Assembly: GCA_036874045.1 (NCBI GenBank)
Contig: CM072339.1
Coordinates: forward strand, 16,251,501 to 16,315,500
Direction of reading: 5' to 3'
DNA from: Cymodocea nodosa
Taxonomy: Eukaryota > Streptophyta > Magnoliopsida > Alismatales > Cymodoceaceae
Length of the DNA stretch: 64,000 bases
Shown: in pieces, positions 16,054 through 54,956 of the stretch
Layout: each line of letters begins with the position of its first letter
Position numbering within the stretch: position 1 is the stretch's first letter
Position numbers and translations under genes: made by a program
Notes under the pieces: generated by a model
Seen by the model: only the letters and a program-made list of their open reading frames with translations
The model's database searches: none
Told to the model about the DNA's origin: nothing

Positions 16054-16129
16054 TTGAGATGCTAAGAAACTATAAGTGCTATTTTGTTTAATATCAAAAC
16101 GAGTGTTGTGTGCTTTATTTTATAATTGA

Positions 16130-18346: not shown

Positions 18347-19484
18347 TTAAAAACATGATTGAAAAGTAGTAACAAATGGAATAAATGTGTCAGTCCATGC
18401 AAACTTTTTAGGTATACTTCTTCTTGCTATTAATTCTATGTTAATGCAATTTGCTTTCCTTTTTAGCTTGTAAACTTACAATATGTTATCAATATTAAAT
18501 ATAAGTGTATTACCATTAATGAAATGAAATACACAAAGGGATCCCCTTATGTTCCAAGATAATGTAGCTATTTCTATTTCTATGTCTATTTCAATATATT
18601 CTTCTTCCCACTTCCATTCATTTAAGTCTTTCATAATCCATATTTGAAATTTCTTCAATTCATCCCACCATCTTATCAGACATAAAGTAGCATCATCATA
18701 TTCATTATACCACATTCCCAATTGAATTTGATTGTATACTAAAGTTAGTGGTTTAGCTATATCACTCGATATAGGTAATATTTCTATAAAACCATCATAA
18801 CTGTCTATGCTTACTATGTATAAATCAGATCTAAATGCAACTAATATATTTGTGACTAGATATATATATATCCATCAAGTATGACATGCATGCTGTTAAT
18901 TAATGATTTATATCCTAGATATCTCATAGTATTTTCAGTCTAAGATCTATTCAGAAAATTATACAACTTAAGCATAAATCTTCATCTCAATTTCCAGTTG
19001 GTCTCCAATAATATAATTTTTCAGGAATGGTCGAATTTTTATCAGAAAATGTTAAAGCTGACCCACAATTTTCAGTTGGTACTTCATGTTTATTAAGTCT
19101 TCCTATACTCCATTCTTCTCTTGTTATAGGATTTCTAATCAAAATGTCAGGTAACAGAATTGCATACCTTGGTTTGGTTCTATATATAATTAATCATTCA
19201 TCCATCCCCATAATATGATCTATTCCTTTTAATGCATTAGGTGGAATTCCAGCAGTTTCTTCTATATTCAGATATTCATAGCAGATTGAACTACGATTAA
19301 ATGACTTCCATAAAAATCCATCTCTAATCTTAGTCATTTTTGCAGCTTGTAGTCCATGAAAATATTTTTCTATGACATAGTCTTTGATTTCCTTTGATAC
19401 ACAACACAATCTGCATAGATCTTTAGCTGACAAGTTACTTAGTACTTCCTTTAGTGCATCTAGTGATAATTTCATCAATTCCAT
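18347..19484 (-). pseudogene. F-box gene copy in element A, decayed
   Basis: The N-terminus reads MELMKLSLDALKEVLSNLSA and KDLCRLCCVSKEIKD, a clear F-box, and the C-terminal part matches the F-box-associated region of the intact copy in B (EWKWEEEYIEIDIEIE, KKFAWTD). Length is about the same as B's 1140 bp, and position in the element is identical: after gag, before the 3' non-coding region. It is broken in several places. A splice-acceptor-like TTATACAG lies 11 nt upstream of the ATG (minus strand), as in the other two copies. It shares roughly 80% residues with the B copy over the first 95, by eye. Confidence 0.85.
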
Positions 19485-19689: not shown

Positions 19690-20223
19690 AATTACTTCAG
19701 TTATACTGTTTCATTCAGCTACCCTCCCAAAGGAGGTATCAATTTCATTAACAGTTTTGTTGATAGGATTAGGTATTGCTTGCATTGGCAATCCTCTAGT
19801 AGATCTAACTTCCATTAATTCTTTCTGTCTAGGGGGTATATTTCTACTTATATTTTGATTTTGAATTGCAACATTTCTAAATACAAGATCCAAACGATTG
19901 TTTAATTGTTGGATTATCTTTTCGAATTTCTCTATTCTAGATCCTTGTTCAATTAAAGCTTCATAACTTATATTTTTGTCATTTATATTTTCTCCTCCCT
20001 GAAAATTGTTGTTTCTCCAAGATAAATTCGGGTGATTTCTCTAATTAGGGTTATAAGAATTTCCAAAGTTATCTTTCTGGTTTCTAGCATAAATAATATC
20101 TAAAACATTAACGTTTGCATTCTTTTCTACTAGCTTTTGATTTAATAATAACTCTTCTATTTTCTTTGTTAATTCAGTTAATTTAACTTCAAGCATAGTA
20201 CTTGAATCTATTTCATGCATTCC
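19690..20223 (-). pseudogene. C-terminal gag part of element A
   Basis: This is collinear with 24480-24990 in B, including LVEKNANVNVLDIIYARN and SYNPN-type phrases (the Athila gag tail WRNH-SWRNN) and a proline-free acidic end with EIDTSFGRV. It is separated from the rest of A's gag (29190-30030) by element B. Broken fossil. Confidence 0.75.
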
Positions 20224-21421
20224 TGTTTAGGTTTTCCCAACACTACACTAGAAAAACTTGGATTTGTTACTTCTATTTTTACTTAGTTAATTTATCTTTA
20301 TGTCTATTCTTTCTTTTAGAAGTAAACAAACAACCTTTAATACAATTTAGATATTAATTCCAATTTGTACTTTAACTGCAAGTGCACAATGTCTATTATA
20401 TCAGTGTGCAAGTACAGGTCGATCCCTTAGGGAATTGCTGACGAATTTAAGAAATGTTTGATTGTGAACAATTCAAATTTATATTCAATAAGCACTCTGT
20501 TGAGTTACAGTTAACTCAACGGACTATCCTCGTGGACTTAAGTTAACTCCACGAACCTGTCTCTTCTTTATAATACTGCTATTTACAAAGGAATTCGGCC
20601 AACCATTAGGCGATTCCACAGATTGTAAATAACATCAATTAAGCTTTTTAATGCTAGTTAACATTGGATTTATCATTAAGCAATACTAACATTCAGATGA
20701 TTCAAACAGTCACCATTAAAATCTTTAAGTTTTTTGTACGAACCAATTGTAGTAAACTGTAAAATTAAAACTAACATAAAACAATCGTAAAATTGATACA
20801 GATAACATTAATCACGATACAACACAAACAATACAACACTCAAATACAACATACAAACAAAGATAAATTGTTTTCGGTATTTTTGTTTTTTGATGTGATG
20901 GGCGAAAGGTGAAATGTAAAGTAATCTCACTTGACAGTAAATACTTCCGACACTACTTGCAACGCGATTACACCACTGAAAATTAAACCACTTACAATTC
21001 TATCTCCTCTCCCTATAGAATCGCAAGTCCAGAATTGCAAGATGATCTCCTCTTCAGTATACAAGCATCAACTCGAAGCCAAAGCTAAAAGCTTTATGGT
21101 CTCTTGAAATATGAGTCGGCGCTTGGTGAAAATGGTTTCCCTTCCCGCGACGCGATCACTCCTCACAGTGGTTGTTAGGTACTGTGTTTGGCTCGAAATT
21201 GACCCGACATCAGGCAAGTATCCTCACAGACCTCTGATGATTGGTGATTATGGTGGTGATACGATGGTTGGTGTGATACTTCAGAGAATCGCCGATACTG
21301 TCTGCAGAAAGCTCGGTGCTCCTCCTCTATATACACTGGCCGTCCATCGATCACACACACTTCTTTTTTTCTTCTTTTCTTTTATATTTCTTCAGTAGTA
21401 ATTGTTTCTGCTTGAATGGTC
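20224..21421 (-). mobile_element. Partial 3' LTR of element B
   Basis: The downstream 1.2 kb of LTR1 (starting TGTTTAGG on the plus strand next to the ATTCC repeat) joins internal sequence at about 21421. It holds hairpin units at about 20490-20560. A plus-strand frame (21111-21398) is antisense to the element and recurs in other LTR1 copies. Confidence 0.85.
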
Positions 21422-23143: not shown

Positions 23144-24283
23144 TTAAGAACATGATTGAAAAGTAGAAATAAATGGAATAAATGTATCAGTCCAAGCAAA
23201 CTTTTTAGGCATAGTTCTTCTTGCTATTAATTCTGTTTTAATGTAGTTCTTGTTCCTTTTTAATTTGTAAACATGCAATATATTATAAATTCCAAATACG
23301 AGTGTATTACCATTAATGATATGTAATGCAGAAAGAGATCCTTTTTGGTTCCAGGGTAATGTAGTAGTTTCTATTTCTACATCTATTTCAATATACTCCT
23401 CTTCCCACTTCCATTCATTCATGTCTTCCATAATCCATATTTGAAATTTCATTAGTTCATCCCACCATCTTATCAGACATAAAGTAGGATCATCTTCTTC
23501 ATTATACCACATTCCTATTTGAATTTTATTAAATTCTGCATATGGTGGTTTAGCTATTTCACTCAGTACAGGTAAAATTTCTATATAATCATCATAACTG
23601 TCTACGCTCACTATGTATAAATCAGATCCATATGCTAATGATATCTTCGTGACTGAATAGATATATCCATCAAGTATGACATTTGTTTGGTTAATTACTG
23701 ATTTCTGTCCTAGATATATCATAATGTTTTCATTCCAAGATCTATTTAGAAAATTATACACACTTAAGCGTAAATCTTCACCCCAATTTCCTGTAAGTCT
23801 CCAATAATATAATTTTTCAGGAATTGCAGAATTTTTATCAGAAAATATTAAAGCTGACCCACAATTTACAGTTGGTGCTTCAAATCTATTAGGTCTTCTT
23901 ATATTCCATTCTTCTCCTGTTATAGGATTTCTTATCAAAATATCAGGTAATGATAAACTTGCATACCTTGGTCTTGTCTTGTATATGATTAATCCTTCAT
24001 CTATCCCCATAATATGACTCATTCCTTCTAATGCATTGGGTGGAATTCTAGTAGTTTCTTCTATAGCTAGATATTCATGGGTATTTGAACTATGATTAAA
24101 TGACCTCCATATGAATCCATCTCTAATCTTAGTCATTTTTGCAGCTTGTAGTCCTTGAAAATTTTTTTCTTCAATACAGTCTTTAATTTCCTTTGATACA
24201 CAACACAACCTGCATAGATCTTTAGCTGACAAGTTACTTAATACTTCCCTTAGTGCATCCAACGGTAATTGCATTAATTCCAT
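23144..24283 (-). CDS. F-box protein carried by retroelement B (intact frame)
   Basis: A single uninterrupted frame of 379 residues from ATG at 24283. Residues about 3-45 form an F-box (MELMQLPLDALREVLSNLSA, KDLCRLCCVSKEIKD), the segment that binds SKP1 in SCF ubiquitin ligases. The rest resembles the F-box-associated region of plant F-box proteins: NPITGEEWNI near residue 115, DLYIVSVDSYDDYIEILP in the middle, RWWDELMKFQIWIMEDMNEW and EWKWEEEYIEIDVEIE later, ending ISTFQSCS. No signal peptide or membrane segment is seen. The frame is open 93 codons' worth of bases further upstream, but I chose this ATG because all three copies start here and a splice-acceptor-like site lies just before it. 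Inferred role: substrate receptor of a ubiquitin ligase; the target is unknown. Confidence 0.85.
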   Translation of the reverse strand: MELMQLPLDALREVLSNLSAKDLCRLCCVSKEIKDCIEEKNFQGLQAAKMTKIRDGFIWRSFNHSSNTHEYLAIEETTRIPPNALEGMSHIMGIDEGLIIYKTRPRYASLSLPDILIRNPITGEEWNIRRPNRFEAPTVNCGSALIFSDKNSAIPEKLYYWRLTGNWGEDLRLSVYNFLNRSWNENIMIYLGQKSVINQTNVILDGYIYSVTKISLAYGSDLYIVSVDSYDDYIEILPVLSEIAKPPYAEFNKIQIGMWYNEEDDPTLCLIRWWDELMKFQIWIMEDMNEWKWEEEYIEIDVEIETTTLPWNQKGSLSALHIINGNTLVFGIYNILHVYKLKRNKNYIKTELIARRTMPKKFAWTDTFIPFISTFQSCS

Positions 24284-24292
24284 TTGTCGATT

Positions 24293-24340
24293 CTGTAAAA
24301 TAAAAAACAAAAATTTAGTAGAGACAAAAATTAACATAAC
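24293..24340 (-). promoter_or_regulatory. Splice-acceptor-like site before the F-box ATG
   Basis: On the minus strand a T-rich tract ending TTTTATTTTACAG lies 9 nt upstream of the ATG. Copies A (AG at 19495-19496) and F (AG at 50841-50842) have TTATGTTATACAG at the same place. The three tracts also share TCTCT-TAATTTTTGTTT just upstream. This suggests the F-box is translated from a spliced subgenomic RNA, as proposed for env-position genes of other plant LTR elements. The donor was not identified. Confidence 0.5.
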
Positions 24341-24479
24341 TACTACACACCCTCGTGGAGTTAAGGCATAACTCAACAGACTAAGTTCATTGAGTTAAAA
24401 ATTAACTCTACGATACTATTAACTAAAAATAAAACATATATACATACAGATAGTTGCTTCAGATATGTTGCTTCATTCA

Positions 24480-25749
24480 ACTGCCCTCCTAGAAGAGGTA
24501 TCAATTTCATTAACCGTTCTATTGACAGGATTAGGTATAGCTTGTATTAGCAATCCTCTAGTAGGTTTAACTTCCATTGGTTCCTTCTGTCTAAGTGATA
24601 TATTTCTATTCTGATTTTGATTTGCAACATTTCCAAATATAAATTCTAGATGATTGTTTACTTGTTGGATTATCTTTTCTAATTTCTCTATTCTAGCTCC
24701 TTGTTCAATTAATACTTCATAACTTATTTTTTCTCATTTATATTTTCTCCTCCCTGGAAATTGTTGTTTCTCCAAGATAAATTCGAGTGATTTCTCCAAT
24801 TAGGATTATAAGAATTTCCCAAGTCATCTCTCTGGTTTCTAGCATAAATAATATCTAAGTCATTTATGTTTGTATTCTTTTCTGCTAGCTTTTGATTTAA
24901 TGGTAACTCTTCTATTTTCTTTGTTAATTCATTTAATTTCACCTCAAGCATAGTATTGGAATCTATTTCATGCATTCCTCTTGGCAATAATTTTTTATCT
25001 GCAATAGCTTCAACCGAATTTTCCCATTGTGTAGTTCTTTTTACAAAATTTTCTAAATATGCCCATCCTTCTTCACTTCATAATTTTAAAAATCCATTTT
25101 GACAAGTAGATTCTAATAAAGATTTCGTTGAAACATCTATGCCTTCATAAATTATACCTATTAATTGTGCTTTACTCATTGCATGATGTGGACATTGAGT
25201 TAGTAAATCTTTAAATCTTTCAAAATATTTCCAAAATGATTCACCCTGTTTCTGGCTACACATTAATATTTCTTCCTTCTTTTTAATCGTTTGATGTGTT
25301 GGATAGTATTTTTCCATAAAAACAGAGCAAAATTCAGTCCATGTAGAAATTGAATCAAGCGACAAAGTATATAACCATCTCTTAGCTGTATCTTTTAAAG
25401 CAAAAGGTATATATCTATGTTTAATAGCATCTATACTCATGTTCGGCATTCTCATCATTTGACAAACTTCGTTAAATTCTCTAAGGAAATAATAGGCATC
25501 CTCTCTTTCTAATCCATGAAAATGTAGCAATTGACTAATATAATTAGATTTCAGTTCAAACCTATCTCCCTTAAAGTTTGGCAATCGAATACATGAAGGT
25601 TCATCAATTAATTCAAGATACAAAATCTCTCCTAATGATTTTTCTACTGGAGCAGCCATCTCTACGTTCTCTTTTAAAGAAAGGTTAGCTACACCCCAAA
25701 GAATTTCGTTAAAGTTCAGTTTAGAAAATTTTTCAGTACTCCTCTGCAA
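24480..25749 (-). pseudogene. Athila-type gag of element B
   Basis: Capsid-type gag. Residues near the start read FSKLNFNEILWGVANLSL. The core has IRLPNFKGDRFELKSNYISQ and FLREFNEVCQMMRMPNMSID, then the retrotransposon-gag motif with RYIPFALKDTAKRWLYTL and FMEKYYPTHQTIKKKEEIL. The tail carries SYNPNWRNHSNLSWRNNN, typical of Athila gag. No CCHC knuckle is present in this block; that motif lies elsewhere in the family, after the primer site. The frame is open over most of its length with a few breaks. It should form the particle in which the RNA is packaged. The F-box gene follows about 200 bp downstream. Confidence 0.82.
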
Positions 25750-25783
25750 TGAAAATTCCTAGGTAGGTGTTCTTACTAATCGT

Positions 25784-25969
25784 TTAGTGCTTAGAGAACG
25801 AGTCCATGTGCTTATAAATAAATAGCAGAAGATTAATTACATACCAGTCTGAAGCTTTCCATTCTATAAATATTTGTTGTCGGATAAAGGTTGAATCAGC
25901 TGCTTTTCCTTCCAGTTCCTCCAACGCTTTCTCCTTTCTCTTAAAAGTGCTGGTACTCGTAAACAACAT
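25784..25969 (-). CDS. Small leader frame upstream of gag in B
   Basis: A 61-codon frame (KRKEKALEELEGKAADSTFI, then RQQIFIEWKASDW) immediately upstream of gag. Related sequence occurs at the same place in A (about 30060-30190) and F (about 47800-47950), where it is not fully open. It could be an upstream ORF, an N-terminal gag exon or chance. I cannot tell which. Confidence 0.3.
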   Translation of the reverse strand: MLFTSTSTFKRKEKALEELEGKAADSTFIRQQIFIEWKASDWYVINLLLFIYKHMDSFSKH

Positions 25970-27380
25970 TTTGTTTCATATATATACTACGCATCCATAA
26001 AGTGAATAAATCTCGTTGCAAGAACGTGGCTTGCAATGTGCATCGTGGTTCCTATTTTTATGGGTACGTGTACCACTACTAATTTCAAATTTTGGTAACC
26101 GTTAAATCGACGAAGTTTTGTTTGTGGTTAAAAGAATAATTGTTCTGCTTAATCCATGAACTAACATCGTTGAGTTACAGATTACTCAAGAGAACACAGT
26201 CGGTTACTGTTGCTAACTCCACGGACTAACTTCGTTGAGTTATAGATAGCTCAACGGAGTGACCTTATATTATATTACTGACCTCGTAGAGTTACGGTTA
26301 ACTCAACGGACATACTTCGTTGAGTTAACACTGGCAACTTCTAAGTTTCACTCTCGTAAGTTTTCTATTCTGTTTTTTTTTCTTTGTCATTCTGCTAACT
26401 GTAATAAAGTTAAATCTATGTCATTAATGCTTCATTTTGATTAAAATATATTTAAATCTGAACATTATATAAAGATTTAACTTGCAGGTCATTTTATGTC
26501 ATGCAGAATTTACATTTTACCTTATAACATGTAGAAATTTTTAAGCAATTATCCTGTCATTCAGCAAATTGTAAATCTATTACATATTCATAAAGTTCCA
26601 TAAATTACATAATATTCAATAAATTCCATTCATTTCACATCCAAATACGTATGAAAATTGCATCTGAAAAATTATATTCATTAATATGAATCAATTACAT
26701 TACAAGTACACAATACAATTTCATACAATTTTACACAAGTAGACGAACAATACAATTTAATCTCTATGCCAAAATTCATCTACTTCCTTCTGGAGTTTTT
26801 CTAATTTTAGATCTTAGCTACAGTACTCCGTTGAGTTACAGTTAACTCAATTGAATAAGCTCGTTGACTAACTCAAGACTCAACGGAGTCAGCTCGTTGA
26901 GTTAAGCGTAACTCAACGGACTCCCCATACAAGCAATTATAATAATAAAAATATTACAGAGAATAGTTTTTCTATTTTTTACAGGTTTAACTGATACTAT
27001 GCTTCGGTCAGACCTAAATATTTTTTATTTTTTTATTTTTCTTTCGGTTGAACCAATACTATGTTTCGATAAAACCAATATTTTTTTCTGAAAATTAATA
27101 TACAACTTTTTTTCCAGTTTAACTGATACTATGCTTCGGTCAGAACTAAATATTTTTTATTTATTATTATTATTTTTTCTTTCAATTAGACCGATACTAT
27201 GTTTCGGTAAAACTAATATTTTTTTTGAAAATTAATATACAATTTTTTTTTTTTAATGTTCCAGTATTGCCGACAGTTCTAGTCGGTTGAATCGCAACTA
27301 TTTTTATATTATATATATATTTTTAATGTTTTACTCAATTCAATCCAATTCAATTCACTTTGACTCAATTCAATTCAATT
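25970..27380 (-). other. Leader of element B with hairpin repeats
   Basis: About 1.4 kb between the primer site and gag. At 26160-26340 and 26820-26930 it holds GTTGAGTTA/TAACTCAAC hairpins. At about 26760-26815 there is a short stretch matching the end of the accessory gene (compare 31000-31060 in A), showing that B derives from a longer element of the A type. The part at 26940-27300 holds CGGTTGAACCG-type motifs. No gene. Confidence 0.75.
26985..27255. repeat. Tandem duplication of about 135 bp in the B leader
   Basis: Two direct copies, each with TTTAACTGATACTATGCTTC and GGTCAGA, a T-rich run, then ACTATGTTTCG, and ending in GAAAATTAATATACAA. Each holds half-palindromes related to CGGTTGAACCGATAC. 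Related sequence lies in the spacers of A (35690-35950) and F (43990-44340). Confidence 0.8.
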
Positions 27381-27397
27381 CCCCGGCAACGGCGCCA
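27381..27397 (-). other. Primer binding site of element B
   Basis: On the minus strand TGGCGCCGTTGCCGGGG, the Asp-tRNA-type primer site characteristic of Athila elements, lies 7 bp after the LTR end (CCCAAACA). Confidence 0.9.
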
Positions 27398-27404
27398 TAA
27401 AACT

Positions 27405-29189
27405 TGTTTGGGTTTTACTAGCACTACACTAGAAAAACTTGGATTTGTTACTTCTATTTTTACTTAGTTAATTTATCTTTATGCCTATTCTTTCTTTTAG
27501 AAGTAAACAAACAACATTTAATACAATTTAGATATTAATTCCAATTTGTACTTTAACTGCAAGTGTACAGTGTCTATTATATAAATGTGCAAGTACAAGT
27601 CGATCCCTCAGGGAATTGATGACGAATTTAAGAAATGTTTGATTGTGAACAATTTAAATTTATATTCAATAAGCACTCCGTTGAGTTACAATTAACTCAA
27701 CGGACTATGTTCGTTTAATTATGGCTAACTCAACGGACTATCCTCGTGGACTTAAGTTAACTCAACGAGCCTGTCTCTTCTTTATAATACTGCTAATTAC
27801 AGAGGAATTCGGCCAACCATTTGGCGATTCCACAGATTGTAAATAACATCAATTAAGCTTTTTAATGCTAGTTAACATTGGATTTATCATTAAGCAATAC
27901 TAACATTCAGATGATTCAAACAGTCACCATTAAAATCTTTAAGTTTTTTGTACGAACCAATTGCAGTAAACTGTAAAATTAAAACTAACATAAAACAATC
28001 ATAAAACTAATACAGATAACATTAATCACGATACAACACTCAAATACAACATACAAACAAAGATAAATTGTTTTTGGTATTTTTGTTTTTTGATGTGATG
28101 GGCGAAAGGTGAAATGTAAAGTAATCTCACTTGACAGTAAATACTTCCGACACTACTTGCAACTCGATTACACCACTGAAAATTAAACCACTTACAATTA
28201 TGTCTCCTCTCCCAATAGAATCGCGAGTCTAGAATTGCAAGATGATCTCCTCTTCAGCATATAGGCATCAACCTGAAGCCAAGGCTAAAAGCTTTACGAT
28301 CTCCTGAAATATGAGTCGGCGCTTGGTGAAAATGGCTTCCCTTCCCGCGACACGATCACTCCTTATAGTGGTTGTTAGGCACTGTGTTTGGCTCGGAATC
28401 GACCCAACATCAGGCAAGTATCCTCACAGACCTCCGATGATTGGTGATTATGGTGGTGATACAATGGTTGGTGTGATACTTCGGAGAATCACCGATACTA
28501 TCTGCAGAAAGTTCGGTGCTCCTCCTCTATATACACTGGCCATCCATCGATCACACACACTTCTTCTTTTTTTCTTCTTTTCTTTTATATTTCTTCAGTA
28601 GTAACTGTTTCTGCTTGAATGGTCGGTTGGATTTCCTTCCTTCAGATCAACGGGGATGATTTCTTTCTCCCTACGCGATTGAATTCCTGCGTGATACGTG
28701 TAAACGTGGTTTTTCCTTCCAACTATCTTTTCCTACAACCGCTACAGTGGCATTTTGGAAAATAACTATAAAATACATGCAATAAAGAAATAAGCTGCTA
28801 ACCTAACGCGTTACCTTAGTGTATATTCATGTAACTCAACGCGTACAGTTTTGCTAACTTAACAAGTTATAACTTAAGTAAATCTACCAGATCTCGACAC
28901 GTGTCAGTAATAGTTTAAACATAAAAAGAGATTTCAGAGAGTTACAAGTCTAACTATCCAATGCTCAGATGCATTTTCAGATACTTAAGAATTTCACAAC
29001 CTACAACTTACCGACAGTTCATAAATGTACTAAATTAACATTAATTCCCCAAAATTAAGCAGATTCTTCAATTAAAGTATATAATAGTGCAATTATAACA
29101 TAATGGCTTAATTCTCATATGATAAGCTAAATATTATGCAATTAACCATCATTTAACTGTTAATAATATGCACTTTTTCATTCTAAACA
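27405..29189 (-). mobile_element. 5' LTR of element B
   Basis: A 1785-bp LTR1 with intact termini (TGTTTAGAATG on the minus strand at 29189; end CAAACA at 27405), next to the ATTCC target repeat. It is shorter than the 2273-bp reference because the hairpin-rich U3 part is reduced. Hairpins lie at about 27670-27770. A plus-strand antisense frame at 28311-28601 recurs in other copies. Confidence 0.9.
28583..28590 (-). promoter_or_regulatory. Candidate TATA box, B 5' LTR
   Basis: ATATAAAA on the minus strand in the same context as other LTR1 copies (GAAGAAATATAAAAGAA). It would drive the RNA of element B leftward. Confidence 0.55.
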
Positions 29190-30030
29190 ATTCCCCTTAG
29201 CAATATTCTTTTATTTACAATAGCTTTAGTTGAATTTTCCCACTATGCAGTTCTTTTGCAAAGTTTTCTAAATATGCCCATGCTTCTTCACGACACAATT
29301 TTAAAAATCCATTCTAACAAGTAGATTCTAATAAAGATTTCGTTGAAACATCTATGCCTTCATAAATTATACCTATTAATTGTGTTTTACTCATTGCATG
29401 ATGTGGACATTGAGTTAGTAAATCTTTAAATCTTTCAAAATATTTCTAGAATGATTCTCCCTATTTTTGGCTACACATTAAGATTTCTTTCTTCTTTTTA
29501 ATCGTTTGATGTGTTGGATAATATTTTTCTAGAAAAACAGAGAAAAATTCAGTCTATGTAGAAATTGAATCAGGCGATAGAGTATATAACCATCTCTTAG
29601 CTGTGTCTTTTAAAGAAAAAAGGATATATCTAAGTTTAATAGTATCTATACTCATGTTCGGCATTTTCATCATTTGACAAACTTCGTTAAATTCTCTAAG
29701 GAAATAATAGGCATCCTCTCTTTCTAATCTATGAAAATGTGGCAATTGACTAATATAATTAGGTTTCAGTTCAAACCTATCTCCCTTAAAGTTTGGTAAT
29801 CGAATACATAAAGGTTCATCAACTAATTCAGGATATAGAATTTCCCCTAATGGTTTCTCTACTGGAGAAGTCATATCTTTGTTCTCTTTTAAAGAAAGGT
29901 TAGCTACACCCCTTAGGATTTTATTAAAGTCTAATTTAGAAAATATTTTAGTTCGTCTCTGTGTTGAAGAATCTTGTATAGGTGTTCTTACTAATCTTTT
30001 AGTGCTAGGAGAACGAATCCATGTGCTCAT
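29190..30030 (-). pseudogene. N-terminal and core gag of element A
   Basis: Homologous to the B gag: FSKLDFNKILRGVANLSLKE, IRLPNFKGDRFELKPNYISQ, FLREFNEVCQMMKMPNMSID. The rest of this gag lies at 19690-20218, across element B. It sits downstream of the accessory gene and integrase of A, an unusual place for gag. Broken fossil. Confidence 0.8.
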
Positions 30031-36070: not shown

Positions 36071-39000
36071 AGGCTTAAGTCTTTGTCCATTTACTTTAAA
36101 TATATTCTGATTCTTAGAATTTCAATTTCTATAACTCCATAGGGATAAATATTGCGAACTATGTAAGGTCCTGCCCATCTAGATCTTAATTTTCCTAGAT
36201 GGTTATGGAGTCTAGTCATGTAAAGATATAGTTCTTGTCTTATTTCAAAGGTTTTTGGAATAATTTTCCTATAATGCCAAAACTTCATTTTCTCTTATAG
36301 TTTTTGAATAAGCTTCATTCCTAAATTCTTCTAATTCAATCAATTGTATTTTCCTATTTTCAGTAGCTTGATTTAAATTAGTGTTGAGAATTTTTAGTAC
36401 CCAATAAGCTTTATGTTCAATTTCTATTGGTAAATGACAATTTTTTCCATATACTAGCCTAAAGGGCGACATACCTAAGCTTGTCTTATAAACAGTTTTG
36501 TAAGCCCAAAGTGCATCTATCAATCTATTAGCCCAATCTATTCTAGTAGGATTTACTACTTTTTCTAAGATTAACTTAATTTATTTGTTTGCACTTTCTA
36601 CTTGTCCATTAGTTTGCAGATGATATGATGTTGCAATTTTGTGGTTTACTCTATATTTCTTTATTAAGGCTTTAAAACTTCTATTACAGAAATGAGTTCC
36701 TCTATCATTGATAATAGCTTTAGGTATCCCAAATCTGGCAATTATATTGGTTCTTATAAATTGTATTACTACTTTGTTGTCATTAGTTTTTGTAGGAATA
36801 GCTTCTATCCATTTAGATACATAATCCACCTCCAACAATATATAATTAAATTGATTAGACGTAGGAAATGGACCCATAAAATCTATTCCCCACACATCAA
36901 AGATTTCAACCTCAACAATAGGATTAAGATGTAGCATATTCCTCTTTGATATTCTTCCTATTTGTTGACATTTTAAACAGCTTAAGCAATATTTATGAGC
37001 ATCTTTGAATAGTGTTGGCCAATAAAATCCATATTGCAGAATTTTAGCAACAATTTTCCCTGAACCAAAATGCCCTCTACATGCTTGGTCATGGTAGAAA
37101 GACAATATGCTCTGATATTCAGTTTCTAGAACACACCTCCTTAAAACCAGATTAGGACATTTCTTAAATAAGTATGAGTCTTCCCAATAGTAATATTTTA
37201 CTCTTGAAAAGAACAATTTCTTATCTTGTCTATTCCAATCTTTAGGTGTTAAACCAGTAACTAAGTAATTAACTATGTCTGCATACCAAGGCATTATGTT
37301 GATGGTCATTAATTGTTCATCAGGAAAATTATCATTAATTTCAATATTTGATTTTTCTATTTGTAATCTTGATAAATGATCTACTACTACATTCTCACAA
37401 CCTTTCTTATCTTTAATTTCTAGATTAAATTCTTGTAATAATAATATCCACCAGATCAATCTCGGTTTGGTCTCTTTTTTTGCTATTAGGTGTTTTAAAG
37501 TTGAATGATCCGTGTATACTATCACTTTAACTCCAATCAGATATGATCTAAACTTTTCTAAGGCAAACACAACAGCTAACAATTCTTTTTCAGTAGTTGT
37601 ATAATTAACTTGAGCATCATTTAAGGTTTAGCTTGCATAATGAATCACTCTAGGAGATTTTTCTATCTTCTGTCCCAACACTACTCCTATAGTAAAATCA
37701 GATGCATCATACATTAATTCAAATGGATGGCTTCAATTAGGTGCTTGAATTATAGGAGTTGAAATTAAGCTAGTTTTAAGCTTGAAAAATGCTTCTTTGT
37801 AATTTTTATCAAAATTGAGTGGGACATCTTTTAATAGATTGGTTAAAGGTCTAGCTATTTTGCTAAAATCTTTAATAAATCTTCTATAAAATCCAGCATG
37901 TCCTAGAAATGATCTAATATCTTTTACTGATTTAGGTTCTGGTAGATTAGAAATTACTTCTATTTTAGCCTTATCTACTTCTAACCCTTTCTTTGAAACA
38001 ACATGTCCTAAGACTATTCCTTGTTAACCATGAAGTGACATCTTTCCCAATTTAGAACCAGACTTTTTTCCACACAACGTTTTAATACCTGGTCAAAATT
38101 GTTTATACACACTTCATATGAAGTTCCATAAATAGTAAAATCATCCATAAATATTTCTAAAAAATCTTCAATCATTTCAGTGAATATGCCTTGCATACAC
38201 ATTTGAAAGGTGGCTGATGCATTACATAGTTTGAATGACATTCTCTTAAAAGCATAAGTTCTATTAGGACAAGTGAAAGTTGTTTTCTCTTGATCCTCTA
38301 ATGCTATTGGGACTTGGTTATATCCTGAATACCTGTCTAGAAAACAAAAATATTCTTGTCCTACTAATTTTTCTAGCATTTGATCTATGAAAGGTAAGGG
38401 AAAATGATCTTTCCTAGTCACTGCATTCATCTTTCTATAATCTATACACACTCTCCAACCTGATTGAATTCTAGTAGGTATCAAGTCTTGACTTTCATTC
38501 TTAATAACTATTAATCCTAATTTCTTGGGAATTACATGGATTGGGCTAACCCATGAGCTATTAGAAATCAGATAAATTATGTCATTATCTAAGCATTTAA
38601 CTATTTCCTTCCTAACTACTTCTTTAAGGTTTGAATTTAATCTTCTCTTAGGAATTCTAACAGGTTTAGCATTCTCTTCTAAATATATGTGGTGACAGCA
38701 TAAAGTTGCACTTAACCCTTTTATATCAGTCATAGTCCATCCTATTGCTTCTTTATAAGTTTTGACTACATCTTTTAATTTAGCAATTTGATCTTGTTTT
38801 AAATCTGAAGCAATAATGATTGGACAAGTTCGTTTTTCTTCCAGAAATATATAGGTTAATTTAGGAGGTAAAGGTTTTAATTCTAATTGCTGCCCATTAG
38901 AAGCTAGAGCTCCTAATTGAACATCATCATTTTCTAAATTATTTTCTTTCTGATCTCCTTCTATATTTATGCTTTCACTTTCTTCTAAAGTTTCAGAATT

Positions 39001-39660
39001 GAGTTGCTTATTTAATTCTTCTTGAATCACATCATCTAGCATATCTCTTTCATCCTCTAAAAGGTCTATAGTATGTAAGGACATTTCTAACTCCTCAAAC
39101 TTTTCTAGTTTGAAAATATTTAGTTGAGTATCCTCATTACCATATGTTAACTTCATTACTCCAGTTTTACAATTTATAACAACTCCTGATGTTGCTAAAA
39201 ATGGTCTTCCCAAAATTAAAGATGGATCACTATTTTTATGCTTAATTTGTTGGGAATCCAAAATTACTATATCAATAGGATATATGAAGTTTTTGATTTT
39301 AATTAAGACATCCTCTATTTTTCCTCTAGGGTATCTTATACTTCTATCAGCTAATTGAATAACAATCCTAGTAGGGATTAAGCCTTCTAATCCTAAGGAT
39401 GCAAATATATCACTTAGCATAACATTTATACATGCACCTAAGTCTATTAAGGTTCTTTCTAGAATGATATTTCCTATGGTGCATGATATAACAAGGATTC
39501 CAGTATCAGATAACTTTTTAGGAATTTGTGGTAGAAATAGGGAACTACTTTGCTTAGCTAAAAAGACTTTCCTTAAAACTTTTCGCTCTCTTTTCTTAGT
39601 ACACCAATCCTTAAGAAATTTAGCACAATGTGTCATTTTTTGCAATAAATCTAACAAATG
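36071..39660 (-). pseudogene. pol of element A (PR, RT, RNase H, IN)
   Basis: Gypsy pol order on the minus strand. The protease is near 39250-39660 (LPQIPKKLSDTGILVISC; active-site block ERTLIDLGA; LADRSIRYPRGKIEDVLIKI; LILGRPFLATSGVVINCKTG). RT is near 37850-38750 (GWRVCIDYRKMNAVTRKDHF; EIFMDDFTIYG). RNase H is near 37380-37800 ([18 protein letters not shown]). Integrase is near 36071-37330, with the HHCC zinc part ([23 protein letters not shown]), core ([35 protein letters not shown]) and a C-terminal part (GKLRSRWAGPYIVRNIYPYG). All match Athila-lineage pol. Long stretches are open, but a few breaks separate the domains, so it is not one gene now. Confidence 0.88.
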
Positions 39661-40158: not shown

Positions 40159-40659
40159 TTATTTCATTGTATATTTGTCCAATGCTTTTAGTTTTCTTTC
40201 TAGATCATCTAATCCCATTGTATTCAATTTTTGATCAATTTTCATTATGGTTTTTTCAATTTCGTAAATGATATCAATTTTGAGTTCTAAATATGTTTCC
40301 TTATAGTTTAATTCGTTGACTTCTTGTTGCTGACACATAAATTGTTTCAGTTTGTCCATGTTTTTCTCTATGCTATGCTCCAGTCTATCATACCTATCCC
40401 AAATTTCATTGTCTCTCAACATATTACACATTCTAAGCTGACCATTAGTTGGGTAAACCATAGAATTCTCATACTCAGATCTATTATAGTGAAGATAATT
40501 CATTTGTTGTTCATGTGATCTAACCATCTGCAATTGTTTCAGTTTTAAACAATTAGAAATGTCGTGACCTTCCAAATTGCAGAATTCACACATGCTAACT
40601 ATAGGTTTTAGAAATCTTTGAGCATAAGCATATACCATATTCTCTATAGAAGTAAACAC
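40159..40659 (-). CDS. CCHC zinc-knuckle / coiled-coil segment of A
   Basis: An open frame of 166 codons. Near residues 20-36 it has CEFCNLEGHDISNC, a C-x2-C-x4-H-x4-C zinc knuckle like the nucleocapsid part of gag. A Met/Asn-rich stretch follows, then a predicted coiled coil (IDIIYEIEKTIMKIDQKLNT and LDDLERKLKALDKYTMK). In typical Athila elements this knuckle is inside gag, after the capsid part. Here it lies alone about 60 bp after the primer site, with the capsid-type gag thousands of bases downstream. It would bind the element RNA if made. The same arrangement is seen in F (16130-16785). Confidence 0.7.
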   Translation of the reverse strand: MFTSIENMVYAYAQRFLKPIVSMCEFCNLEGHDISNCLKLKQLQMVRSHEQQMNYLHYNRSEYENSMVYPTNGQLRMCNMLRDNEIWDRYDRLEHSIEKNMDKLKQFMCQQQEVNELNYKETYLELKIDIIYEIEKTIMKIDQKLNTMGLDDLERKLKALDKYTMK

Positions 40660-40715
40660 ACAACACTTTTGCTATTAAAACAAAACAGCACTTACAGTTG
40701 CTTAGCTTCTTAATT

Positions 40716-40733
40716 TCCCTGGCAACGGCGCTA
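40716..40733 (-). other. Primer binding site of element A
   Basis: TAGCGCCGTTGCCAGGGA on the minus strand, 7 bp after the LTR end. It differs at one or two bases from the Asp-type Athila primer site. Confidence 0.88.
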
Positions 40734-44600: not shown

Positions 44601-46910
44601 AATCATTTAGAACTTAGCATAATAAAGATCAGAGCGATTCCATTCCATTCCGTCACACCACGAAGACAAGATGACGCTAGAGTTCTGGGAGGAGATAGAC
44701 ACCACTAGATTTCTTAGAGAGTTAGAAGAATGGCATACGTGACAAAAGATCAAGAACATGACTAGGGAGAAAGAACTCCAAAAGGTAGAATCTAACATCT
44801 TCTACTAGAGGAAAGTCTTGGTAGATTTGCATATTACTATACCTAAGATTGTGGAGACAAGGATTAAGGTAGCAACGGAAGTTGCAGTCAACAAAGAAGG
44901 AAGAATCAGGCCAAACAACGAAGTTGCCCTAGAATTGATTCGATGCAAGTCCTGGTTATGGTTTGTAAGACGTATTGGTGGACATGCCCGGTGGGCAATC
45001 TAGGAGCAATAGAGGAAGGTAGTTGAAGAACCTACATCAACAAAGCCAACTGCTGAAAGACTAGTTACTGAGGAACAACAGCTAGGATCATTCATTCCAC
45101 TACCAAGGCCGATAGAAAGAGCAGCATTTTTGGGGCCATCGATGCTAGAGAAATGGAAAGAATTTATAGAGCTTGTCAAAGTTGCCAAGAGCTAAGAAAA
45201 TTCTAAGGATATGGTTGTGGCAAAATCGTATTTGCTATATAATGCACTCTACAAATAAAGGGCTGTAGAAAAGTTGAAGGCCCAGTATAAAATTAAAGTC
45301 GAGCAGCATCAGGAAGCAGCTAGATCAATGGCTACAAGAGAAGTTGAAGCTAGTCCTTCGAGACTAGCAATTATAGAAAAAGTTAAACAAGAAGAGCTAG
45401 TACCTATGGCTCGAGGGCCTATAGAGCCCATTTTAGTAGATTTAATCTTAGAGGAGGAAGAGTTAGACTAGACATAGTTAATTAGAAGAAGGAAAGGAAA
45501 AGAGATAGTGTTTGAACCTCAAGAAGAGATTAAATTTGAGATGCAAATATTAGTAGGGCCTGTAGAGTCGATTTTTGTAGACCTGCTATCCGAATCTGAA
45601 GATGAGTAGGAGCAGCAACAACAAGAGCAAAGAGAAGAAGAAAAATAAGCTAAAATTAGTCTATAGCCTGTACAAAGAGAAGAAACTGAAATTAGAGTAG
45701 AAGCTGATTTGCTCATGACTCCATCCCAATTTGCCATAGAATCAGAAAAAACAGTGACAATGTAGATTAGTAGTCAAGAGGAAGAAGAAAGAATAGAAAC
45801 TGAACAAGAAGCTGAACAAGTATATATTGAATAAGAAAGGAATGACTCGACAGATTCCACTGAAGAAGGAGAAACTCTTCAGCAAATTTTAGAGAGGATT
45901 CAAGAAAGAAGAGTGGAGAGTTCTACCAGCTCTCCAACACAAACAAAAGTAGAAGCAAAAATACAGGAATCTGTTGAGCATTTTCAGCCAATTCAAGTTC
46001 AGCATGAGGAAGAAGAAATTCAAGAACAAACCCCTCTAGAGCAACAAATGCAAATTCCTAACCCGGCTAAAGCTACTATTCTAAATGAAGTACACTTTTG
46101 GAGTCAAGAAGCTTATAATAAATATCAAGAGATAAAGGGGTATGATATTATTTACAATAGGCTAATAAACTAGGACAGTATGTAGGAAATTAAGGATTTA
46201 TTTGAGTTCTAGGGTCTATTGACATTTATTTCTCAGTAGAGAGGGCATGCAGTATATGAGAATCTAGTGCCCTGCTTCTATGCCAATTCTAAAGAAGAAG
46301 GAAGTAGATTAATTTCCAACGTGGAGCAAGCTAATGTACAAATAACACCAGAGCTTCTCTACAATATTTTCGGATTGAGAAATGAAGGAATAGAAATTCT
46401 GGAAAGCACAACTGCAGTCGAGTGGACAGAACAAGTAATAAAGGACTATTTAGCTATCAATCTTGGTGTGTCATTATTAAATAGATTGAAGCACTTAAAT
46501 GGTAAAGCACACATGGTAGCTAACATTTTGATTAAAAATGTCTATCAAAGACAAGGCCACAACATTGAACTTAGTCAATTTGTCAAGTGGGCCACATATG
46601 CAGTTGTGAATAGAATTCAGGTTAATTGGTACAAAGCATTTATCTCCAAATTGAGAGTAGTAAAGAAGAAATTATTTTATGGAGATCTGATTTCACTACT
46701 GATGGTGGATAGTATTGATTTCACGAAATGGGCATCCAAAAGGATTAGATCAAAAACCATTTCAGTGAAAGAATATAGAAATTATACTACTACTGAGATT
46801 GTTGAACCTTCTAGAAGCATTACAAGAGCTGTAGAGAGGATAAATCAATTAGAGCAACAATTAGAAAAACTCTAGAAGGAAGTAGATGAACTTAGGAAGA
46901 AAAATTAAAA
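44601..46910 (+). pseudogene. Accessory (env-position) gene of F
   Basis: Collinear with the A accessory gene, on the plus strand: N-terminal charged part (near 44640-45200, with EVAVNKEGRIRPNNEVALEL), Glu/Gln-rich acidic linker, then the folded part (LVPCFYAN, ELLYNIFGLRNEG, LNRLKHLNGKAHMVANILI, ELSQFVKWATYAVVNRIQVN, KKLFYGDLISLLM). The final coiled coil begins VERINQLEQQLEKL. Broken at several places. Best-preserved block: 46267-46875. Confidence 0.75.
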
Positions 46911-47960: not shown

Positions 47961-49295
47961 TGAGCGCATGGATTCATTCTCCTAGCACTAAATGATTAGT
48001 AAGAACACCTACACAGGATTGTTCAACACAAAGGAGTATTGAAATATTTTCTGAATTAGACTTTAACGAAATCCTTAAGGGTGTAGCTAACCTTTCTTTA
48101 AAGGAGAATGAAGATATGACTACTTTAGTAGAAAAACCATTAGGGGAAATTCTGTATCCTGAACTAGTTGATGAACTTTCATATATTCGATTGCCAAACT
48201 TTGAGGGAGATAGGTTTGAATTGAAATCTAATTATATTAGTCAATTGCCACACTTTCATGGATTAGAAAGAGAAGATGGCTAGTATTTCCTTAGAGAATT
48301 TAACGAAGTTTGTCAAATGATGAAAATGCCAAACATGAGTATTGATGCTATTAAATTTAGATATATTCTTTTTGCTTTAAAAGACACGGCTAAGAGATGG
48401 TTATATACTCTGTCGCCTAATTCAATTTCTACATGGACTGAATTTTACTCTGTTTTTTTGGAAAAATATTATCCAACACATCAAACGATTAAAAGAAAAA
48501 AGAAATATTAATGTGTAGCCAAAAATAGAGAGAATCATTCTGGAAATATTTTGAAAGATTTAAAGATTTACTAACGCAATGTCCACATCATACAATGAGT
48601 AAAGCACAATTAATAGGTATAATTTATGAAGGCATAGATGTTTCAACAAAATCTTTATTAGAATCTACTTGTTAGAATAGATTTTTAAAATTGTGTAGTG
48701 AGGAAGTATGAGCATACTTAGAAAACTTTGCAAAAAGAACTACACAGTGGGAAAACTTAGTTGAAGCTATTACAAATAAAAGAATATTGCCAAGGGGAAT
48801 GCATGAAATAGATTCAAGCACTATGCTTAAAGTTAAATTAACTGAGTTAACAAAGAAAATAGAAGAGTTATCATTAAATCAAAAACTAGTAGAAAAAAAT
48901 GCAAACATTAATGATTTAGATATTATTTATGCTAGAAACCAGAAAGATAACTTTGGAAATTCTTATAACCCTAATTGGAGAAATCACTCGAACCTATCTT
49001 GGAGAAATAATAATTTTCAGGGAGGAGAAAATATAAATGACAAAAATATAAGTTATGAAGCATTAATTGAATAAGGATCTAGAATAGAGAAGTTAGAGAA
49101 GATAATTCAACAATTAAACAATCATCTGATCATGTATTTAGAAATGTTGCCATTCAAAATCAAAATATGAATATAAATATACCCCTTAGATAGAAGGAAT
49201 CAATAGAAGTTAGACCTACTGGAGGATTGCCAATGCAAGCAATACCTAACCTTGTAAATAGAATTGTTAATGAAATTGATACCTCCTATGGGAGG
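47961..49295 (+). pseudogene. Athila-type gag of element F
   Basis: The plus strand matches B and A gag: GVANLSLKENEDM, IRLPNFEGDRFELKSNYIS, MMKMPNMSIDAIKFRYILFA, LKDTAKRWLYTLSPNSIST, and the tail SYNPNWRNHSNLSWRNNN. It lies downstream of integrase and accessory gene, as in A. Several breaks. The last part is separated from the F-box by a solo LTR at 49296-50651. Confidence 0.8.
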
Positions 49296-50853: not shown

Positions 50854-51993
50854 ATGGAATTAATGAAATTACCACTAGATGCACTAAGGGAAGTACTGAG
50901 TAACTTATCAGCTAAAGATCTATGTAGATTGTGTTGTGTGTCAAAAGAAATTAAAGATTGTGTCAAAGAAAAATATTTTCATAGACTACAAGCTACAAAA
51001 ATGACTAAGATTAGAGATAGATTTTTGTGGAAGTCATTTAATCGTAGTTCAATTAGCTATGAATATCTAAATATGGAAGAAAGTACTCGTATTCCACCCA
51101 ATACATTAGAAGAAATAGATCATATTATGGGGATAGATGAAGGATTAATTATTTACAGAACCAAACCAATGTATGCAATTCTATTACCTGATATTTTGAT
51201 TAGAAATTTTATCACTAGAGAAGAATGGAATATAGGAAGGCCTAATAAATTTGAAGTACCAACTGAAAATTATGGGTCATCTTTAACATTTTTTGATAAA
51301 AATTCGACCATTCCTGAAAAATTGTATTATTGGAGACCAACTGGAAATTAGGATGAAGATTTATGTTTAAGTGTGTATAATTTTCTGAATAGATCTTGGA
51401 CTAAAAATACTATGATATATCTAGGATATAAAACATTAATTAACAACATACATGTTATACTTGATGGATATATATATTTAGTGTTAGATATATCAGTTGC
51501 ATTTAGATCTGATTTATACATAGTAAGCATAGACAGTTATGATGATGACTTTATAGAAATACTACCTATACCTAGTGATATAGCTAAACCACTATCTATA
51601 GAACATGATAAAATTCAATTAGGAATATAGTATAATGAATACGATGATCCTACTTTATGTCTGATATGATGATGAGATGAAATGATGAAATTTCAAATAT
51701 GGATTATAAAAGACCTAAATGAATGGAAGTGGGAAGAAGAATATATTGAAATATATGTAGAAATAGAAGCAACTACATTATCTTGGAACAAAAAAGGAAC
51801 CCTTTCTGCATTTCAATTCATTAATGGAAATACATTTATATTTAGTATTGATAACATACTACAAGTTTACAAGTTAAAAAGGAAAGCGGACTGCATTAAA
51901 ACAGAATTAATAGCAAGACGAATTATGCCTAAAAAGTTTGCTTGGACTAACACGTTTATTCCATTTATCACTACTTTTCAATCATGTTCTTAA
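50854..51993 (+). pseudogene. F-box gene copy in element F, decayed
   Basis: Exactly 1140 bp from ATG to stop, the same as the intact B copy. The N-terminus is MELMKLPLDALREVLSNLSA with KDLCRLCCVSKEIKD, a clear F-box. Later phrases are DLYIVSIDSYDD, NEWKWEEEYIEIYVEIE and AWTNTFIPFITTFQSCS. It has a few breaks but is almost collinear. A TTATACAG acceptor-like site ends at 50842, 11 nt before the ATG. Confidence 0.85.
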
Positions 51994-52740: not shown

Positions 52741-54956
52741 TGTTTAGAATGAAAAAGTGTATATTATTAACAATTAAATGATGGTTAATTGCATAATATT
52801 TAGCTTATCATATGAGAATTAAGCCATTATGTTATAATTGTACTGTTATAAGCTTTAATTAAAGAATCTGCTTAATTTGGGGGAATTAATGTTAATTTAG
52901 TATATTTCTGAACTGTCGATAAGCTGTAGGCTGTGAAATCCTAAAGTATCCGAATTTTCTGATATTTCAGACAGTTATGTTTAACATACCGAACATATTT
53001 CGGACAGTTATGTTTAACATACCGAACATGTATCGAATAGTTATGTTTAAATTGCCGAACAGTTATGTTTTAAAAGAATATTTTATTATTTCCTAAAATA
53101 CACGTGTCGAAACCATAATGCATGACTTAAGTGAACTTTCGGTGAGTTATCTATAACTATCCGAAATTGTAGCTAGGCATTGGATAGTTATATGTGTAAC
53201 TCTCTGAAATCTCCTTTTATTTATAAAATAGTTGTGGACACGTGTCATGTTCTAGGAAAGTGACTTAAGTAGATTTTTGGTGAGTTATCTCTAACTATCC
53301 GAAATGTATCTAAGCATCGGATATTTAGACCTGTAACTCTTCGAAATGTTTCTTTTATTATTAAACTACTGCTGACATGTGTCAAGATCTGGTAGATTTA
53401 CTTAAGTTAAATATCGGTGAGTTATTTATAAGTATCCGAAATACACCTGAGCATCAGATAGTTAAATTTATGCATGTGTTTTATAGTTAAATCAACGAAG
53501 CAAGTACGTTGAGTTATCTGTAACTCCACAGACTATTTATTTTCTAATATACCACTGTAACGGTTGCAGAAACAGGACAGTTGGAAGAAAAACCATGATT
53601 GCACGTATCGCGCAGGGAGAAGAAAGCATCGTCGTTGATATGAATGAAGAAAATCTAACCGACCATTCAAGCAAAAGTAGTTACCATTGAAGAAATATAA
53701 AAGAAAAGAAGAAAAAGAAGTAAAATGTGTGTGATCGATGGGTATGGCTAATGTGTACAAAGGAGGAGCACCGAGCTTTCTACAAACAGTATCGGCAATT
53801 CTCTGAAGTACCACACCAACCATCATTACCACCACCATAATCACCAACCATTGGGGGTCTGTGAGGATACTTTCCTAATGTCGGGTCAATTCCGAGCCAA
53901 ACACAATGTCTAACAACCACTGTGAGGAGTGATCACGTCGCGAGAAGGGAAACCATTTTCACCAAGCGCCGACTCATATTTCAGGAGATCGTAAAGCTTC
54001 TAGCCTCGGTTTCGGGTTGATGCCTGTATGCTGAAGAGGAGATCATCTTGCAATTCTAGACTCGTGATTTTATAGGGAGAGGAGACAGAATTGTAAGTGG
54101 TTTAATTTTCAGTGGTGTAATCGTGTCGCATGTAGTGACGGAAGTATTTACTATCGATTGAGATTAGTATACATTTCACCTTTCGCCCATTTTCATGTTC
54201 ATATTAAAACAAAAATACCAAAAACAACTTATCTGTGTTTGTATTTTGTATTTGAGTGTTGTATTGTTTGTGTTGTATCGTGATTAATGTTATCTTTGCT
54301 AGAGTTGTGATTGTTTTATGTTTGTTTTAGTTTTACAGTTTACTGAAATTGGTTCGTTCAAAAGACTTAAAGATTTTAATGGTTACTGTTTGAATTAACT
54401 AAATGTTAGTATGCTTAATGATAAATCCAGTGTTTACTAACATTAAAGAGCTTAATTGATGTTATTTACAATCTGTGGAATCGCCCAATGGTTGGCCAAA
54501 TTCCTTTGTAAATAGTAGTATTAAAAAGAAAAGGCAGGCTCGTGGAGTTAATTTAAATCCACAAGATTAGTCCGTTGAGTTAACCATAACTCAACGAACT
54601 TTATCCGTTGAGTTAACTATAACTCTTAAACAAACGGAACAGTTCTCAATAGAGGGCTTATTGAAGATATAAATTTGATTATTAACAAACGGAACAGTTC
54701 TCAATTCTTAAACAATTCTCTATGGGATCGACCTGTACTTGTACACTAATACAATAGACATTGTGCACTTGCAGTTAAAATACAAATTAGAATTAATATC
54801 TAAATTGTATTAAAGGTTGTTTGTTTACTTCTAAAAAAAAGAATAGGCATAAAGATAAATTAACTAAGTAAAAACAAAAGTTAACAAATCCAAGTTTTTC
54901 TGATGCGTTGTTGGAGATCCAATCAGGTTTTCTGGTGTTGTGCTGGGTAATCAAAT
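52741..54956 (+). mobile_element. 3' LTR of element F
   Basis: Full-length LTR1 of about 2.2 kb starting TGTTTAGAATG next to the PPT. It carries the TAACTATCCGA hairpins (53150-53320), TATA context near 53693 and the GTTGAGTTA hairpins (54540-54620). It runs into a further LTR fragment at about 54957. No match to a target repeat of the 5' LTR was found. Confidence 0.88.

Follow-up and report, generated by a model that had tools for sequence, protein, structure and literature searches.

The presence of an intact F-box gene inside a long terminal repeat (LTR) retrotransposon raises the question of whether such a gene belongs to the element and serves it, is carried along without benefit, or has come to lie beside the element by accident. 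The window, that is, the whole 64-kb stretch of DNA that was analysed, contains three copies of the gene in elements designated A, B, and F, and is part of a plant genome of 374.6 Mb in 28 contigs. In the copies described below, the gene stands at a constant position ahead of the 3′ LTR, travels with the element, is spliced, and is constrained between subfamilies; its open reading frame (ORF) is accordingly regarded here, with high confidence, as an accessory gene of the element.

The F-box gene and the elements that carry it

The copy in element B is read on the minus strand from an ATG at 24283 to a TAA that ends at 23144, the plus strand of the same interval containing 36 stops. Two further copies are found in the window by tblastn:

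23144..24283, minus strand: F-box ORF of element B, 1140 bp, 379 aa plus stop, open
18347..19484, minus strand: F-box copy of element A, 1138 bp, 2 frameshifts and 4 stops in the frame of B
50854..51993, plus strand: F-box copy of element F, 1140 bp, frame kept, 5 stops

Residues 4–42 of the B protein match the Pfam F-box family PF00646 (1.9e-10), with a domain score of 40.7 bits that is above the curated cut-off of 20.5, and the C-terminal part of the protein has no Pfam match. DNA identity over the ORF is ~85% between B and either A or F, and 89% between A and F. All three copies lie 3′ of gag capsid sequence, and in B and F LTR sequence then follows; since A breaks off ~165 bp short of where its 3′ LTR belongs, the placement between gag and the 3′ LTR is directly seen in B and F only. 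The preliminary description had reported a gene of 1138–1140 bp at this same internal place in all three elements, with the B copy fully open; the ORF listing, Pfam, and tblastn confirm the gene and its lengths, and the placement stands for B and F and is cut short in A.

Element B is an LTR element at 20224–29189 (minus strand) with TGTTTAG...CTAAACA ends, which sits inside the gag of A and is flanked on both sides by the 5-bp target duplication GGAAT. The features of the three elements are as follows:

20219..20223, minus strand: target site duplication GGAAT, 3′ side of B
29190..29194, minus strand: target site duplication GGAAT, 5′ side of B, in gag of A
27405..29189, minus strand: 5′ LTR of B, TGTTTAG...CCCAAACA
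20224..21421, minus strand: 3′ LTR of B, its first ~625 bases missing by comparison with the genomic copy L014
27380..27397, minus strand: primer binding site of B, starting 7 bases behind the LTR
26813..27254, minus strand: noncoding stretch of B, found after the integrase in A and close behind the 5′ end in B
25750..26806, minus strand: tail of ORF3 (the post-pol ORF) of B and untranslated leader of capsid and F-box
24485..25749, minus strand: gag capsid region of B (PF03732), with one TGA and one 1-bp deletion relative to F
29296..29961, minus strand: gag capsid of A, beyond the B insertion
48029..48693, plus strand: gag capsid of F
36581..37582, minus strand: RNase H/integrase ORF of A, preceding capsid and F-box
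38014..39657, minus strand: protease/reverse transcriptase ORF of A
40159..40659/40733, minus strand: zinc-knuckle (CX2CX4HX4C) ORF of A, near the primer site, motif read by eye
46267..46875, plus strand: ORF3 of F, between integrase and capsid
52741..54946, plus strand: 3′ LTR of F

Taken together, A and F give a composite full-length order of LTR, primer site, zinc-knuckle ORF, protease/reverse transcriptase, RNase H/integrase, ORF3, gag capsid, F-box, and LTR. Element B is without pol and most of ORF3, and because its 5′ end joins the post-integrase stretch of A (B 26813..27254 against A 35965–35535, 65% over 453 bp, E 1e-36, with pol deleted in B) and then the ORF3 tail, it is best read as a deletion derivative of the A/F type in which capsid and F-box have been retained. 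Two breaks are found in the gag of B and none in its F-box, its LTR pair diverges by K2P 0.055 (63/1,193 sites), and a TATA-like site stands in its leader at 25986 (minus strand). Element A in turn seems to interrupt F, with further LTRs within both; in F, a later LTR insertion at 49296–50651 (minus strand; target duplication GGAGG) separates gag and F-box. This LTR and another in A (32584–34681, plus strand) lack an internal part and are probably solo LTRs of the same family.

The reverse transcriptase encoded in A (PF00078, 1.4e-22) is of the plant Ty3/gypsy type; 5,346 of 7,985 scored proteins are related to it at E ≤ 0.001, and the organism-named proteins among the 120 matches listed are all from plants. 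The F-box-bearing elements form a high-copy Ty3/gypsy family, probably of the Athila lineage to judge by motifs, the primer site, and ORF3; the primer binding site of B is presumably of the tRNA-Asp type. Athila-lineage elements are described as having a tRNA-Asp primer site close behind the LTR and, in their canonical form, a single gag-pol ORF with the capsid in front (PMC1142308); in A and F, the capsid lies instead behind integrase and ORF3.

Several minor observations concern this architecture. The gag of A and F is split (40159–40733, minus strand; 29296–29961, minus strand; 16113–16610, plus strand; 48029–48693, plus strand), the zinc knuckle lying near the primer site with no capsid ahead of it in A, and the capsid ORF, which by eye contains no zinc knuckle, lying behind integrase and ORF3. 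Inverted GAGTTA...TAACTC copies (CCGTTGAGTTAA/TTAACTCAACGG) recur many times across the element, in its LTR, leader, and spacer, and could form RNA hairpins:

27780–27660, 26930–26820, 26340–26160, 24420–24355, 20580–20490, and 35640–35520: GAGTTA...TAACTC inverted copies

Matches between the capsid leader and the LTRs, which bear on the idea of a relic LTR, fall largely on this repeated stretch. An identical polypurine-like stretch, GGACAATGCAAAATGTAGGTATGGGGGGGAGG, occurs at 22726 in B and 17935 in A (minus strand), well ahead of the 3′ LTR, and a tract resembling it adjoins the 3′ LTR in L014. No tRNA or Rfam family was found in the window at the gathering cut-off.

Copies in the genome and the capsid intron

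A search of the genome with the B protein as query gave 7,027 candidates, of which the best 108 were scored; all of these span practically the whole F-box protein, and 37 of these best-scoring copies are free of stops (manual table count). A 34-base F-box signature, allowing at most 3 mismatches, has 1,575 + 1,542 = 3,117 matches in the genome, each being a match to that stretch and not to a full-length gene, against 0 + 0 for the reversed signature; F-box copies or remnants are hence present at about three thousand places, and these counts, together with the identity of 85–89% among the window copies, exclude chance likeness. As a side observation, eleven exact signatures on one contig (G000 C2, about 8972844–9714421), all on the minus strand and ~59–119 kb apart, often near 60 kb, look like a large tandem array with one F-box copy per unit.

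Twenty loci of 10 kb, representing ranks 2 to 21 of the protein-ranked list, were fetched, and in every one the F-box is followed by the 3′ noncoding stretch of the element and then by LTR sequence. The first bases of the LTR were located in 19 of the 20, the exception being L023, where, as in L012, the start region of the LTR has been hit by a later insertion. For B and four of these loci both outer ends are visible, and all five copies are flanked by perfect 5-bp target duplications that differ from one another (GGAAT, TCTAC, GTGAA, GAGAC, and TGGTT), for which reason the copies are independent insertions by retrotransposition; the eight comparable LTR pairs diverge by K2P 0.023–0.066 over the last 434–700 bases. 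The earlier proposal that the gene is part of the element and has been multiplied by it is borne out by these loci, duplications, and signature matches.

The route by which the F-box RNA is reached is indicated by an intron of B:

24293..25844, minus strand: GT-AG intron of B enclosing the whole gag capsid ORF

In B, the donor reads GACTG/GTATGT and the acceptor TTTTACAG/AATCGACAA-ATG (the slash marks the splice site), so that the intron ends 9 bases ahead of the F-box ATG. Among the 20 loci, the capsid match is full in ten, each with at least one stop or frameshift, partial in four, and not usable in six. In five of these six (L011, L016, L019, L022, and L025), exactly the GT...AG intron is absent: capsid-bearing copies read GCTTCAGACTG/GTATGT ... 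TTTTACAG/AATCGACAAATG, and capsid-less copies read GCTTCAGACTG/AATCGACAAATG, with one point change beside the joint in L019 and L025. A sixth spliced copy, L070, comes from a 10-copy sample that was not picked by the F-box, and the spliced copy L011 has its own target duplication. Because the GT-AG intron has been removed exactly in five of the 20 loci, the F-box RNA has been transcribed, spliced, reverse transcribed, and re-inserted, the simplest account being that element RNA is spliced to place the F-box ORF behind a leader exon and is then packaged, reverse transcribed, and inserted. A, B, and F all retain the acceptor AG, as do 12 of 13 printed unspliced loci, the exception being L026 with AT. 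The gene is, in these terms, a sense ORF between pol and the 3′ LTR that is reached by splicing.

L019 groups with the capsid-bearing copies B and L013 in the F-box tree (support 88 and 78), and the noncoding tree unites B and L013 at 81 with L019 joining at 49; the other spliced copies stand elsewhere in the trees, with low support. More than one splicing-insertion event is therefore likely, although not proven. Pol is present, with stops, in the spliced copies L016, L019, and L022.

A second intron was considered as an explanation for the missing ORF3 of B, L014, and L023 and rejected, there being no GT upstream of the joint, which looks like a short-homology deletion. Behind the F-box, a splice-like motif pair, TTTTTCAG followed ~43 bases on by G/GTATGTA, is conserved in B and A, where a small exon is possible:

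22866–22823 in B and about 18105–18060 in A, minus strand: splice-like motif pair

Constraint on the protein and loss of the gene

Selection was estimated by codon maximum likelihood with stops counted as non-synonymous states. For A, B, and F, omega is 0.505 (2dlnL 18.7 against 1), compared with 0.65–1.49 in five control frames, of which the lowest (2dlnL 7.5) shares third positions with the gene. NG86 estimates of 0.40–0.52 for the same copies lie below all but 0–1 of 300 neutral simulations per pair, these simulations having a transition bias lower than that later fitted, and two control frames come near frame 0. The gag capsid of the three elements has an omega of 0.369 (controls 0.65–2.36).

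A tree of 63 copies was then composed of B, the 20 loci of ranks 2–21, 20 of the next 22, 20 from further down chosen in favour of open copies, and A and F. Omega is 0.544 on the stem, 0.544 on A/F, 0.535 on other internal branches, and 0.746 on terminal branches, the control frames giving 0.63–1.99 (stem), 0.69–1.56 (other internal), and 0.65–1.14 (terminal); the terminal branches are uninformative, as their value lies within the control range. The stem alone yields a 2dlnL of 5.2, with three control frames at 4.4–5.9 in the opposite direction. In the pooled tree, frame 0 has an omega of 0.68, and of the three control frames run, two give values under 1 as well (0.71, 2dlnL 30; 0.78, 2dlnL 16), so that only the deeper branches carry the argument for constraint.

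The two subfamilies are about 14% apart, and open ORFs are found in both. L081, an open copy of the A/F subfamily (378 aa), gives a median omega of 0.423 (0.365–0.485) against 32 open B-type copies, with controls, run on 8 of the 32, at 0.67–1.77; B and L081 differ by indels of 3 bp only. Among six segments of the protein, residues 1–45 have the lowest amino-acid-changing divergence (pN 0.066 and pS 0.470 against F; pN 0.091 and pS 0.309 against A). The protein has accordingly been constrained between subfamilies, on the deeper branches, at an omega of 0.42–0.54, and since both subfamilies carry the gene in the same place, this constraint postdates the capture.

Recent changes, in contrast to these deeper ones, look neutral. 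Variants were counted within 60 B-type copies (one near-duplicate left out), a sample that leans to better copies: singletons not of the deamination type have a non-synonymous to synonymous ratio of 2.64 against 2.68 expected, and those of the deamination type show an excess (8.3 against 3.7). Among deamination-type variants common to at least 4 copies, one stop is found against ~12 expected from the synonymous count, a depletion that is absent in the five control frames; some control frames reach a non-synonymous to synonymous ratio as low as that of the shared variants. A neutral model derived from the LTRs of B gives its ORF a probability of 0.02–0.04 of staying open, which is weak evidence given the many copies. 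Separately, stops recur at codons 43, 59, 97, 167, 193, 311, and 313 in copies that for the most part are not near one another in the tree, which suggests mutation hot spots; that these reflect a C-to-T change at methylated positions is a guess.

Loss of the gene was assessed in a sample drawn independently of it: a search with the 3′ noncoding stretch of B gave 5,851 candidates, and 10 of the best 40, spread down the list, were fetched. The F-box is full-length in five of the ten and open in none, the five having 1, 5, 2, and 2 stops and, in one case, frameshifts with 3 stops. In one of the remaining copies the LTR starts within the F-box, in three only 77, 389, and 310 of 1,137 F-box bases are left, and in one there is no F-box match. 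There are, therefore, derivatives that lack the F-box, and the element can do without the gene in cis; it is common without being in every copy, as would be the case for a gene acting in trans or for one of no importance.

The preliminary description had placed the capture before the divergence of A, B, and F and had held that the gene was kept during the spread. The gene was indeed already present before these copies diverged; its being kept agrees with the constraint on the deep branches and has to be qualified by the many copies that lost or broke it. A dN/dS near 1 throughout the history of the family without expression, which was named there as a contrary outcome, is not what was found, expression being evident through the spliced copies only.

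Function, origin, and known systems

Retroviruses and some plant viruses redirect host ubiquitin ligases against host defences. The F-box protein, translated from an RNA reached by splicing out the capsid-containing intron, would join the host SKP1-CUL1 ubiquitin ligase through its F-box; its divergent C-terminal half would recruit a host protein (or one of the element's own), and removal of that protein would help the element. Taken as a whole, the reading of a spliced, mobile, and constrained accessory gene, acting as a putative SCF adaptor that aids the element, is the one favoured on balance, and the narrower proposition that the adaptor acts on a host protein is about evenly poised; a silencing or restriction factor would be the likeliest, and still putative, class of target. 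Should the element make use of the gene as an adaptor, the substrate would lead to a plant factor that restrains retrotransposons. The family offers two natural experiments as well: spliced RNA that has been integrated as new copies, and a capsid gene positioned after pol and within an intron. A more elaborate version, considered rather unlikely, would see a divided population of pol-keeping, capsid-less spliced copies (as in L016, L019, and L022) and pol-less, capsid-keeping copies of the B type, both carrying an SCF adaptor that splicing would yield in place of capsid and that would remove a restraining host factor.

The alternative that survives best, although it is judged unlikely, is a passenger gene, captured once from the host and amplified in a successful element without benefit to it. 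Half of the F-box-independent sample without a full-length gene and none of it open, singletons at a neutral-looking ratio, and a terminal omega within the control range are all compatible with a passenger, whereas the omega between subfamilies, the open ORFs in both, the F-box domain as the most conserved part, and the acceptor AG kept in A, B, F, and 12 of 13 printed unspliced loci tell against one.

Less probable again is that the F-box motif only stabilises the protein or acts on the element's own proteins, for instance in capsid turnover. The capsid does lie inside the intron that is removed for the F-box RNA, and among poleroviruses, whose silencing suppressor P0 carries an F-box-like motif, the P0 of Brassica yellows virus is reported to be stabilised by SKP1 contact that is not directly required for suppression (PMC6593998). 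P0 and the element protein share an F-box-like motif; no relation between them is suggested, and silencing activity of the kind proposed in the preliminary description is speculative here.

Co-option of copies by the host for its own use of the F-box protein is very improbable: 37 open copies among the best 108 of the protein-ranked list could be read in this way, but the tree is star-like with long tips, recent changes look neutral, and all 20 fetched loci are ordinary element copies. Independent host F-box genes lying beside LTR elements by accident, an outcome that the earlier account had itself named as contrary to capture, are rejected for the copies examined by the 20 of 20 loci within the same LTR element, the five of five duplications, the 3,117 signature matches, and the unrelatedness of the sole host-type F-box gene fetched.

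Capture of the accessory gene from a host F-box gene is suggested by its domain. The donor search with the B protein that had been proposed returned no relative at E ≤ 0.001 among 1,679 word-sharing candidates, and an alignment of F-box copy pieces had none at E ≤ 10 among 7,992 candidates, in the same protein database that holds the 5,346 reverse transcriptase relatives. A PF00646 search of the genome, in which the best 150 of 4,217 candidates were scored and three fetched, returned two copies of the A/F-type element and one host-type F-box gene (L079) that is unrelated to the element F-box (E 0.27); the donor may be too diverged or may lie outside the best-scored candidates. No relatives of the protein were found among viral contigs, a PDB sequence search gave nothing with the protein and one meaningless match (E 1.4) with the alignment as query, and structure prediction was useless at pLDDT 39.

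Titles, abstract openings, and term counts from an open-access library showed no plant LTR retrotransposon with a family-wide F-box gene. A close parallel is offered by Ty3/gypsy elements of the orchid Phalaenopsis, in which a 2-ODD (m6A demethylase-like) ORF is likewise an extra enzyme-type ORF kept through copying; they differ in domain and are of the Ogre/Tat rather than the Athila type. In the accompanying screen, 15 extra domains are reported from 121 angiosperm genomes, and the main text does not contain the term "F-box" (PMC9289625). Maize Bs1 and other transducing LTR elements also contain host-type coding sequence, but the Bs1 segments are described as not being full-length ORFs, whereas the F-box signature occurs here in 3,117 places (PMC13317346, PMC7264820). 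In Thlaspi arvense, the F-box "LTR-gene" TaChr6G576 is similarly LTR-linked, yet is presented as a host gene of an expanded family rather than as one shared by an entire family of elements (PMC8764390).

The additional or env-like 3′ ORFs of Athila and Bagy2 occupy the same place between pol and the 3′ LTR in the sense orientation, and expression by splicing has been reported for that of Bagy2 (PMC7264820, PMC11728184); the present ORF differs from them in encoding an F-box protein and in having an intron that holds the gag capsid. In Diaspora, an envelope-less Athila relative of soybean and probably of the same lineage type as the F-box element, packaging of a spliced subgenomic RNA was proposed as a one-step gene deletion (PMC1142308). 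Canonical elements have one gag-pol ORF (PMC1142308), unlike the F-box element with its capsid behind pol, and the step proposed for Diaspora is visible here with the capsid removed rather than env.
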